Below are positions 14,268 through 17,762 of a stretch of DNA of 64,000 nucleotides, in pieces. The position numbers and the translations under genes were made by a program. The number at the start of each line of letters is the position of its first letter. Within the stretch, counting starts at the first letter, position 1. Origin of the DNA: Ignavibacteriales bacterium (GTDB taxonomy: Bacteria; Bacteroidota; Ignavibacteria; Ignavibacteriales; SURF-24); assembly GCA_026390815.1 (NCBI GenBank), contig JAPLFH010000046.1, positions 1 through 64,000 on the forward strand, in the 5' to 3' direction. The notes below the pieces were generated by a model. The model was not told the DNA's origin. It was given only the letters and a program-made list of their open reading frames with translations, and made no database searches.

Positions 14268-15146
14268 ATGAAAATTAATATAGATAGTAATGCAGGCTTT
14301 TGCTGGGGAGTAGTTAGAGCAATTGATTTTGCAGAAAAAGAGTTAAGCACTGCCAATAAAGTATATTCGCTCGGTGATGTTATTCATAATACGGCAGAAG
14401 TAAAAAGATTAAATGATCTTGGTCTTGAAACGATATCGGTTAATGATTTCTCAAAACTTGAAAAGGGAAGTAAGGTTTTAATTAGAGCGCATGGTGAGCC
14501 TCCAGCAACCTATAAATTAGCAGCTCAAAATGATTTGGAAATTATTGACGCAACCTGTCCCATTGTTACTAAGGTACAAGAACGGATAAGAAAATTTTAT
14601 GATAATAATTTTCAGGTTGTAATCTTTGGTAAAAAAGATCACGCAGAAGTTATTGGTTTACGTGGTGTAACTTCTGATAATGCAATTGTTGTTCTTAGTG
14701 TTGATGAAGCGTTGGAAAAAGTTGATTTTCAAAAACCAACTGTTCTTTTTTCTCAAACCACAATGGATAGAGAGACATTCCAAAAGATTACTGATGCGTT
14801 GAGAGAAAGGATAAAGGAATTGCAGATCGGTTCAATTGAAGAGGAAGCAGTTCAGTTTCATTCGAAGAATACAATTTGCGGACAGGTTTCCGGTCGCGAT
14901 AAAAAGTTACGAGAATTTGCTAAGGCAAATAATGTTATACTTTTTGTTGCTGGAAAGAAAAGCAGCAATGGAAAAGTTCTTTTTAATATTGCAAAAGAAG
15001 AAAATCCGAAGACATATTTTATAGAAGAAGAAAATGATATTCAGTTTGGATGGATTGATGATGCAGACACTGTTGGAGTTACCGGTGCTACTTCAACTCC
15101 ACAATGGTTAATGATAAAAATAAAAGGATATATTGAAAAGAGATAA
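14268..15146 (+). CDS. ispH: 4-hydroxy-3-methylbut-2-enyl diphosphate reductase
   Basis: Last enzyme of the methylerythritol-phosphate pathway, making IPP and DMAPP. 292 residues. The three [4Fe-4S] ligands are C12 (NAGFCWGV), C97 (DATCPIV) and C204 (NTICGQVSGRD); substrate-binding histidines H40, H75 (RAHGEP) and H125 are present. The third cysteine motif is the QVSGRD form rather than the more common AT..RQ form, a variant I associate with Bacteroidota-type enzymes. The TGATSTPQWL motif closes the active site. It starts 13 bases after cmk. Confidence 0.95.
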   Translation: MKINIDSNAGFCWGVVRAIDFAEKELSTANKVYSLGDVIHNTAEVKRLNDLGLETISVNDFSKLEKGSKVLIRAHGEPPATYKLAAQNDLEIIDATCPIVTKVQERIRKFYDNNFQVVIFGKKDHAEVIGLRGVTSDNAIVVLSVDEALEKVDFQKPTVLFSQTTMDRETFQKITDALRERIKELQIGSIEEEAVQFHSKNTICGQVSGRDKKLREFAKANNVILFVAGKKSSNGKVLFNIAKEENPKTYFIEEENDIQFGWIDDADTVGVTGATSTPQWLMIKIKGYIEKR

Positions 15147-15149
15147 GTA

Positions 15150-15547
15150 ATGAAAATTGATTTTGACATAAATAAAACCACTGCATATTGGGTAGAAGGT
15201 TCGATAGAAGATTTAGATGTGGCAAAATCACTTTTTAATTCGCAAAAGTTTCTTTATTCATTATTTTTTGGACATTTGGCTTTAGAAAAAATGCTTAAAG
15301 CACTATTTGTGAAAATTAATATGGAACATGCACCAATTACTCATTCATTACCGTTGCTCATTGAAAAAAATAAATTAATAATTCCTGAAGTGTTTAAAAT
15401 TAAACTCGTTGAGTTTATGGATTCTATATTGAAGGTAGGTATCCAATCGATAGGAAGAAGCACTTTGAAAAATGTGATGAAAAATTTACAAAACAAAAAC
15501 TTGAAGAGATAAAAGAAGTCCATCAATGGTTGAAAGCTCAATTATAA
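15150..15547 (+). pseudogene. HEPN-domain protein, frameshifted
   Basis: The open frame (15150-15512, 120 aa) begins as a normal HEPN (PF05168-type) protein: AYWVEGSIEDLDVAKSLF, then FFGHLALEKMLKALFVK and ITHSLPLLIEK. After EFMDS the reading frame fails. The missing C-terminus continues in another frame from 15422 to the TAA at 15545-15547, as FYIEGRYPIDRKKHFEKC and then LEEIKEVHQWLKAQL, the standard end of this family. One extra T in the TT at 15422-15423 would restore the frame. With the shift repaired, the protein is about 132 residues and its end overlaps the MNT gene start (15526), as usual for these pairs. This is either a real inactivation or an assembly error. Confidence 0.85.
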
Positions 15548-15843
15548 ATATTGTTAAAAAATACAAAGATCAGCTTAATAAAAAAGGCGTTGAAGTTAAT
15601 AAGATATTACTTTATGGTTCTTATGCAAAACATGTCAATTCTAAAGAGAGCGATATTGATGTGGCAGTTATCTCAGATAATTTCGGTATTGATCCTATTG
15701 ATGAAGGAATGATGCTTTTTAGAATTGCCGGCGAAATCGATTTAAGAATAGAACCTGTTGCTTTTTCAAGGAAATCATTTGAAGAAGATAATTGGTTACC
15801 ATTAATTTATGAAATAAAAAAAACTGGAATTGAGGTTAATTAA
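15526..15843 (+). CDS. MNT-type minimal nucleotidyltransferase (antitoxin-like)
   Basis: 105 residues, a minimal DNA-polymerase-beta-like nucleotidyltransferase. The signature G31-S32, ten residues, then D43-I-D45 (GSX10DXD) matches MntA-type antitoxins, which in characterised systems AMPylate their HEPN partner. The third carboxylate is probably in GEIDLRIEPVAF. It overlaps the 3' end of the frame-corrected HEPN gene by 22 bases. If the HEPN partner is truly broken, this antitoxin would be left alone. Confidence 0.9.
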   Translation: MVESSIINIVKKYKDQLNKKGVEVNKILLYGSYAKHVNSKESDIDVAVISDNFGIDPIDEGMMLFRIAGEIDLRIEPVAFSRKSFEEDNWLPLIYEIKKTGIEVN

Positions 15844-15941
15844 AGTCATCTTAATAACGAATGTTTAACTAAACACTTTTGCTTCAACTAATTTCTGATG
15901 ACTAATTAGTGAAAAGCAGGTAATTATTTTTTGGAGGCATA

Positions 15942-17762
15942 ATGTCTGAAGAGACAAACGAACGAGTTGAAGTCGTTCAAGTTCCAAGTAAAGGGGTAGA
16001 AAAGTATCTAAACTCAGATGAATATTCTGTTGAAGAATTAGAGCTTTTAACTAAACTGTATTCACAATCCTTTAAAGATGTAAAGGAAGGTGAAATTATT
16101 AAAGGTAAGATCGTCGGCATTCAAGGAGATAATGTAATTCTTGATGTTGGTTTCAAATCGGAAGGAACTATTCCTAAGAACGAATTTTTTGCTGGTGAAG
16201 AAATTAAAATTGGTTCTGACGTAGAAATAGTTATTGAAAGCGTTGAAGACGGCGAAGGAAATCTTGTCCTTAGTAAAAAGAGAGCTGATTTCTTAAGGAT
16301 CTGGAATAAAGTAGTTAATGCTTACGATACCGGCGAAATTATGCAGGGAAAAATTCTTAAGAGAATTAAAGGCGGAATGGTTGTTGACTTAATGGGTATT
16401 GAAGCATTCTTACCTGGTTCTCAAATAGATATTCGCCCTGTACGCGATTTTGATGCTTTCGTTGGTCAAACAATGGATTTCAAAGTTGTTAAGATCAATA
16501 TTCCTACTGAAAATGTTGTAGTATCTCATAAAGTTCTTATCGAAGAAGAAATTTCTGATCAAAGAAAAGCAATTCTTGATAGCCTTGAGAAAGGACAAAT
16601 CCTTGAAGGTATTGTTAAAGCAATTACCGATTTTGGCGTGTTCGTGGATCTTGGCGGCGTTGATGGATTAATTCACATTACCGATTTAAGCTGGGGAAGA
16701 ATTAATCATCCAAGTGAAGTTGTTAAGCTTGATGAAAAGATAAAAGTTGTTGTAACAGATTTCGATATGGAAAAGAAAAGAATTTCTCTTTCACTTAAAC
16801 AACTTCTTCCTCATCCATGGGATAGTATTGATGTTAAATATAAAGTTGGTGATAAAGTTGCTGGTCGTGTTGTATCGCTTACAGATTATGGCGCTTTCAT
16901 AGAAATTGAAAAAGGTATTGAAGGCTTAATCCACATTTCTGAAATGAGCTGGACACTTCATATTAAACATCCATCTCAGTTTGTTTCTATGGGACAGATT
17001 GTTGAAGCAATAATTTTAAGTCTTGATAAAGATGACAAGAAAATTTCACTTGGTATGAAGCAATTGGTTCCAGATCCTTGGACAGAACTTATGCAGAAAT
17101 ATCCGGTTGGAACTAAGCATACCGGCATTGCCAGAAACCTAACTAACTTCGGAGTTTTTGTTGAACTTGAACCAGGTGTTGATGGATTGGTTCATATTTC
17201 TGATTTATCTTGGACAAAGAAAATTCGTCATCCCGGAGAAGTTGTAAAGAAAGGTGAAAAAATAGATGTTGTTGTTCTTGGTGTTGATACCGACCAGAGA
17301 AAAATTTCTTTGGGTCATAAACAAATCCAGGATAATCCTTGGGACGTTTTTGAAAGAAACTATGCCGTTGGAACAATTGCTGAAGGTAAAGTTGTAAGGA
17401 TAATTGAGAAAGGGTTGATTGCAGAACTTCCATCTAAAGTTGATGGTTTTGTTCCTGTTACCCAACTTTCAACTTCAAAAATCAAAAATATTTCTTATTG
17501 TTTCCCTGTCGATTCAGAACTTCCATTGAAGGTTGTTGAGTTCGATAAAGAAAACAAAAAGATTGTTCTTAGTGCAGTCGGCGCATTGAAAGAAAAATCG
17601 AATGACGAAATAAAAGAATACATTGCTAAACACAAATTAGAAAAAGTTTCTATTGATGACATTAGAAACGCAAGTGCAGATACTGTTGATTCATCGGGTT
17701 TTCCAAATTATGAAACACCTGACGAACCCTTAGTTTCAAATCCTTCTGCACCAACTGTGTAA
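15942..17762 (+). CDS. rpsA: 30S ribosomal protein S1
   Basis: 606 residues with six S1 RNA-binding repeats; the last four show the repeated signatures GFGVFVDLGGVDGLIHITDLSW-like, DYGAFIEIEKGIEGLIHIS, NFGVFVELEPGVDGLVHIS and a final degenerate copy ending DGFVPVTQLS. S1 brings mRNA to the 30S subunit. The start follows TTGGAGGCATA, a strong Shine-Dalgarno. N- and C-terminal tails are acidic and low in complexity. The cmk-ispH-rpsA order is conserved widely; here the HEPN/MNT pair sits between ispH and rpsA. A terminator follows at 17794. Confidence 0.96.
   Translation: MSEETNERVEVVQVPSKGVEKYLNSDEYSVEELELLTKLYSQSFKDVKEGEIIKGKIVGIQGDNVILDVGFKSEGTIPKNEFFAGEEIKIGSDVEIVIESVEDGEGNLVLSKKRADFLRIWNKVVNAYDTGEIMQGKILKRIKGGMVVDLMGIEAFLPGSQIDIRPVRDFDAFVGQTMDFKVVKINIPTENVVVSHKVLIEEEISDQRKAILDSLEKGQILEGIVKAITDFGVFVDLGGVDGLIHITDLSWGRINHPSEVVKLDEKIKVVVTDFDMEKKRISLSLKQLLPHPWDSIDVKYKVGDKVAGRVVSLTDYGAFIEIEKGIEGLIHISEMSWTLHIKHPSQFVSMGQIVEAIILSLDKDDKKISLGMKQLVPDPWTELMQKYPVGTKHTGIARNLTNFGVFVELEPGVDGLVHISDLSWTKKIRHPGEVVKKGEKIDVVVLGVDTDQRKISLGHKQIQDNPWDVFERNYAVGTIAEGKVVRIIEKGLIAELPSKVDGFVPVTQLSTSKIKNISYCFPVDSELPLKVVEFDKENKKIVLSAVGALKEKSNDEIKEYIAKHKLEKVSIDDIRNASADTVDSSGFPNYETPDEPLVSNPSAPTV

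Follow-up and report, generated by a model that had tools for sequence, protein, structure and literature searches.

A two-gene HEPN/MNT cassette in the genome of an Ignavibacteriales bacterium is likely to be an inserted Class II pair in which the HEPN toxin was knocked out by a frame change and the MNT antitoxin was kept, and comparable pairs across the order decay in the same one-sided manner. Few two-gene modules of prokaryotes are as abundant as HEPN/MNT pairs, and for the class built on PF05168 both the toxin-antitoxin (TA) status and the toxic half had been unsettled; dozens of one-sidedly decayed loci now speak to both questions from genomes alone. We regard this family-wide decay as new evidence for Class II pairs being TA modules with HEPN as the toxin. 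Here, "the window" denotes the whole stretch of 64,000 nucleotides that was analysed.

The HEPN Gene and Its Frame Break

15150-15512, plus strand: HEPN gene (PF05168) in frame 0, ATG at 15150, stop at 15510-15512, product of 120 aa
15413-15433, plus strand: interval of the -1 frame change, bounded by a -1-frame stop at 15410-15412 and the conserved GRYP at 15434
15413-15547, plus strand: conserved HEPN C-terminus in the -1 frame, with the invariant R-Y at 15437-15442

The HEPN open reading frame (ORF) matches PF05168 with 37.8 bits against a cut-off of 22, covering profile positions 3-80 of 117 only. Its 120-aa product retains the family residues W14, E46, K47, K50, and H65 and lacks the R-Y motif and the C-terminal helices, so that the histidine is present and the arginine and tyrosine are gone. 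In the -1 frame (15413-15547) the displaced C-terminus is VYGFYIEGRYPIDRKKHFEKC...EVHQWLKAQL*, and since no ATG, GTG or TTG precedes GRYP in that frame, it is not a separate gene. With a profile derived from intact relatives the two pieces turn out to be consecutive parts of one domain, the first matching positions 4-109 in frame 0 (88 bits) and the second positions 91-131 in the -1 frame (35 bits); as each piece is detected separately, the second is not a chance match. All conserved HEPN residues are still encoded in the window, spread over two frames. A sequence-only reading of this DNA had put the break at about 15422 and an intact C-terminus in another frame ending at 15547; both points are borne out, and similarity to relatives agrees with about 15422 within the interval given above. 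A functional TA pair would have both genes open, which the broken HEPN frame precludes here, and we interpret the locus as probably a real inactivation of the toxin with the MNT antitoxin retained, an event that is probably recent.

The same sequence-only reading had left three options, namely a toxin inactivated beside its surviving antitoxin, a programmed frameshift and a draft-sequence error. A programmed -1 shift producing full-length HEPN at low dose would go in the usual direction of bacterial programmed shifts, and the downstream frame is indeed intact; yet the interval 15413-15433 has no X_XXY_YYZ slippery heptamer, a single open frame spans each of 85 homologues, and the broken homologues differ in both position and type of lesion (+1, -1, nonsense). 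Since the lesions vary between loci, the chance of a programmed frameshift is close to negligible. A functional role for the truncated 120-aa product, for example as a decoy or regulator, is scarcely more probable: its N-terminal half is kept and its stop lies close enough to the MNT start for coupling, but it has lost an arginine and a tyrosine that are (nearly) invariant in the 85 homologues, its C-terminus consists of out-of-frame residues, and relatives with a broken HEPN show different truncations.

Insertion Between ispH and rpsA

14268-15146, plus strand: ispH, the upstream neighbour, directly followed by rpsA in 12 relatives
15845-15935, plus strand: conserved rpsA leader, the right edge of the inserted cassette, with GTCATC at 15845-15850 and GATGAC at 15897-15902
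15942-17762: rpsA, the downstream neighbour

The pair lies between ispH and rpsA, as had been read from the sequence. Comparison of the locus with relatives, proposed in the same reading, showed that in the 12 in which ispH was found, rpsA lies ~100-270 nt downstream with neither HEPN nor MNT between them. In the window, HEPN stands directly 3′ of ispH, its ORF starting three bases past the ispH stop, and the rpsA leader stands directly 3′ of the MNT stop. The empty site in relatives together with these flush edges identifies the cassette as an insertion that left the rpsA leader undisturbed. Among the genomes compared the cassette is private to the window genome, and the ispH-rpsA locus itself is ordinary.

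The rpsA leader with its GTCATC/GATGAC repeat is present in four same-family relatives (L052-L055), where the inverted repeat is accompanied by a ATGTTTAACTAA-like core that also occurs in more distant genomes. Possibly this leader regulates ribosomal protein S1; 15845-15935 had no match among Rfam families. The start of the contig (window 1-4168) carries a partial 16S, two tRNA, 23S, and 5S rRNA genes. As for ispH, it was found in same-family genomes and in several genomes of a further family (f3), whereas at E <= 1e-20 no genome of family f2 of the order yielded it; that family may make isoprenoids by another route.

The MNT Gene and the Class of the Pair

15526-15843, plus strand: MNT, minimal nucleotidyltransferase of 105 aa, intact in a single open frame
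15616-15660, plus strand: GSX10DXD motif (G31, S32, D43, D45), reading GS-X10-DID
15751-15753, plus strand: third acidic residue of MNT, E76

The window MNT scores above the cut-off for PF18765/PF01909 and keeps, in one open frame, the GSX10DXD motif that had been noticed from the letters. Its start overlaps the end of the displaced HEPN frame by 22 nt, the same layout as in intact pairs, and the out-of-frame HEPN stop lies only 13 nt upstream of the MNT start, so that translational coupling could persist. In other genomes, the MNTs closest to that of the window (L012 and L013) both stand next to broken HEPNs; no close relative or conspecific copy was found among the genome contigs or plasmids searched. 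The NCBIfam MntA equivalog NF047752 gives 31.3 bits against a cut-off of 60, and across NCBIfam and PADLOC HEPN went unmatched, while the matches to MNT were all weak. One of these is the PADLOC candidate defence family PDC-S09, which matches the MNT at full length (15526-15843) with 42.9 bits, whereas HEPN matches nothing in PADLOC.

By its domains and motifs, the pair is a Class II HEPN/MNT module: a PF05168 HEPN stands next to a GSX10DXD MNT, and RX4HXY is missing but the tyrosine is conserved, its R-Y sitting in the displaced frame. The HEPN family to which the window copy belongs has no RX4-6H RNase motif, and the displaced C-terminus, which reads GRYPIDRKKHFEKC, contains no RX4H. The marks of Class I (Type VII HepT/MntA) are lacking, namely RX4HXY in HEPN and an MntA equivalog match at its cut-off. 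AMPylation of an RNase HEPN by MNT is established for Class I only (PF01934/PF08780, RX4HXY). The initial statement that such pairs are established TA systems in which the MNT modifies the HEPN RNase thus stands for Class I and does not carry over to this pair, which is of Class II without RX4-6H. Class II has been defined as PF05168 plus PF01909 with RX4HXY missing and a tyrosine conserved, and as of 2020 it had no biochemistry and a TA function still to be validated (Yao et al., 2020, PMC7641770). We found no demonstration of toxicity of a PF05168 HEPN in the open-licence literature searched.

One-sided Decay Across the Order

The survey covered 136 genomes of the order and was symmetric, being made with an MNT profile and with a HEPN profile, so that broken HEPNs were detected via MNT and broken MNTs via HEPN. 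Every listed locus was fetched, and each of its genes was classed as a single open segment, as multiple segments, or as a fragment. The tally excludes divergent MNT-first pairs (L001, L005, the second pair of L078, and the second HEPN of L080), since the profiles span no more than part of these.

Both genes are intact in 83 core pairs, and HEPN is damaged beside an open MNT in 49 (39 by stop or frameshift and 10 as HEPN fragments), these counts being taken from draft genomes in which some loci are related and the events not all independent. About 10 further loci (10-12) have an MNT without any HEPN. The reverse, an intact HEPN with a frameshifted MNT, occurs at a single locus (L151; 1 of 84 scorable), and both genes are disrupted at one core locus, two weaker both-damaged loci (L068 and L238) falling under the score limit. 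HEPN takes first position in every core pair scored. The resulting 39:1 split of lesions compares with a length expectation of 56:44 (p = 4e-9). Altogether 40 loci carry 46 HEPN lesions (18 nonsense, 18 -1, and 10 +1) at scattered positions, and even two loci that are 94% identical (L013 and L195) have different breaks. The window genome has a second decayed pair on contig 24 at 32.9 kb (L070), in which an intact MNT lies downstream of a HEPN fragment, together with several intact core pairs (L002, L003, L004, and L006); intact Class II pairs of this genome lie at 79.0-79.7 kb of contig 9 and at 59.6-60.3 kb of contig 24. A small sample from outside the order trends in the same direction, with seven intact pairs, five with HEPN damaged and MNT intact, and two MNTs alone; at one further locus there (L266/L283) the MNT is damaged and the HEPN also has in-frame stops within its profile match.

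Length or codon make-up was rejected as the source of the asymmetry, since length, homopolymers, and stop-mutability give an expected HEPN share of lesions of 54-61% and 97-100% was observed. Homopolymer slippage was likewise rejected as the sole cause, given the 18 nonsense lesions and a similar density of long runs in HEPN and MNT (3.5 vs. 3.8 per kb). One apparent solo intact HEPN (L228) was dismissed, having neither a start codon nor the invariant W. Two different genomes have nonsense codons at or beside the R-Y motif (L037, profile positions 96-98; L269, 95-97). Of the 28 frameshifts in HEPN, 11 cluster at profile positions 45-60, close to the A-rich codons that encode the invariant EKxxK (p ~2e-4), a region that is possibly a slippage hotspot in the toxin gene.

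These counts also bear on whether the window HEPN is intact in the organism and its frame change an artefact of a draft assembly. The break is read from one assembly of the species, a 59-contig draft, and there is a single lesion with every conserved residue present across the two frames, as such an error would leave it. The site, however, is not within a long homopolymer, and between 4.3 and 64 kb every other protein-coding gene of the window, ispH and rpsA among them, reads as a long ORF without interruption. Moreover, draft errors should hit MNT about as often as HEPN, and yet the lesions divide 39:1. One damaged MNT among the 84 pairs with an intact HEPN limits artefacts to at most ~1.5% per HEPN gene, compared with ~30% observed, which leaves an individual HEPN lesion with a ~5% chance of being an error. 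An assembly error is hence very unlikely, and an inactivated toxin beside its antitoxin is the best supported of the three options.

In the 85 intact HEPN homologues W, E, K, K, and Y are invariant (Y in 85/85) and H and R are each found in 84/85; no conserved H follows the RY. The PF05168 family has been listed as HEPN-T, with an alternative active site proposed from an upstream histidine together with an arginine (Anantharaman et al., 2013, PMC3710099), and the near-invariant H and R fit this proposal. In the intact module, HEPN would most likely be the toxin, with the invariant H and R at the core of the site through which it acts, and MNT would most likely neutralise it by nucleotidylating the invariant tyrosine beside that R. 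With a toxic HEPN and a protective MNT, a cell that first lost MNT would die and one that first lost HEPN would be unharmed, and one-sided decay is expected, which matches the data: a toxin should never stand without its antitoxin and an antitoxin may stand alone, and the counts are 49 plus about 10 against 1. The decay across the order thus points to HEPN as the harmful half of Class II pairs.

The pattern is hard to obtain from a two-subunit enzyme, although it would also arise if MNT were essential in its own right and HEPN merely dispensable. The earliest proposal for HEPN was in fact that of a substrate-binding subunit (history in PMC3710099), Class II and the homologues seen here are without the RX4HXY RNase motif (PMC7641770), and solo MNTs are under purifying selection, all of which would suit a dispensable accessory HEPN beside an enzyme with its own job. 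Such a pair, which would not be a TA module, fails to predict that an intact HEPN without an intact MNT is so rare (1/84) or that H, R, and Y are invariant in HEPN, both of which a toxin-antitoxin relationship predicts; we therefore consider the accessory role unlikely, if the least improbable of the alternatives weighed here.

Selection on MNT Genes Without a Working HEPN

Among 61 MNTs with a broken or absent HEPN, the residues G, S, D, D, and E are kept at 95-100%, as in the 83 MNTs of intact pairs, and dN/dS is 0.06-0.19, similar to controls. Two HEPN-less loci (L173 and L178) share one solo MNT together with the end of the gene upstream of it, and their MNTs give a dN/dS of 0.06 at a dS of 0.51. 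This indicates selection after HEPN loss provided that HEPN was already gone in their common ancestor, as supported by the upstream sequence they have in common. HEPN itself still shows a dN/dS of 0.07-0.17 in comparisons of broken with intact copies, and since most HEPN lesions look recent, selection before the break contributes to the low MNT values.

The best reading is that a HEPN-first Class II cassette entered the window lineage between ispH and the rpsA leader and that a later frame change just upstream of the R-Y motif knocked out HEPN, with MNT kept. That MNTs outlive HEPN under purifying selection calls for a function; neutralising paralogous or incoming HEPNs is the likeliest reason for their retention, the alternative being an independent nucleotidyltransferase role. 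It is conceivable, though we hold this only tentatively, that selection maintains orphaned MNTs as standing antidotes (or as enzymes that act on a new target) and that Class II cassettes in the order regularly pass from TA pair to solo nucleotidyltransferase immunity gene.

Comparison With Known Systems

The closest described group is Class II (PMC7641770), with which the window pair shares a PF05168 HEPN, a GSX10DXD MNT, the missing RX4HXY, and the conserved HEPN tyrosine. It differs in that HEPN comes first here in the core pairs, whereas the general gene order in HEPN/MNT pairs is MNT first (PMC3710099), and in that the window HEPN is broken. The Type VII HepT/MntA systems of Class I (Shewanella SO_3166/SO_3165 and Aphanizomenon HepT/MntA) likewise consist of two small adjacent genes with a HEPN fold and a GSX10DXD nucleotidyltransferase, and their MNT is related by sequence to that of the window (match to PDB 5yep chain); their HEPN, however, belongs to PF01934 with RX4HXY and their MNT gene lies upstream. 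The closest solved PF05168-type HEPNs by profile are TM0613 (1o3u), TT1696 (1ufb), and 1wol (E 4e-8 to 5e-7), to which the depositors gave no function. A parallel for the decay itself is offered by the orphan antitoxins of Klebsiella, left by decayed TA pairs without a working toxin, for which anti-addiction or cross-neutralisation has been proposed (PMC7192599). Those belong to type II/IV systems, whereas the window antitoxin is a nucleotidyltransferase enzyme, and unlike in the Klebsiella cases the decay described here was scored lesion by lesion against the partner gene.
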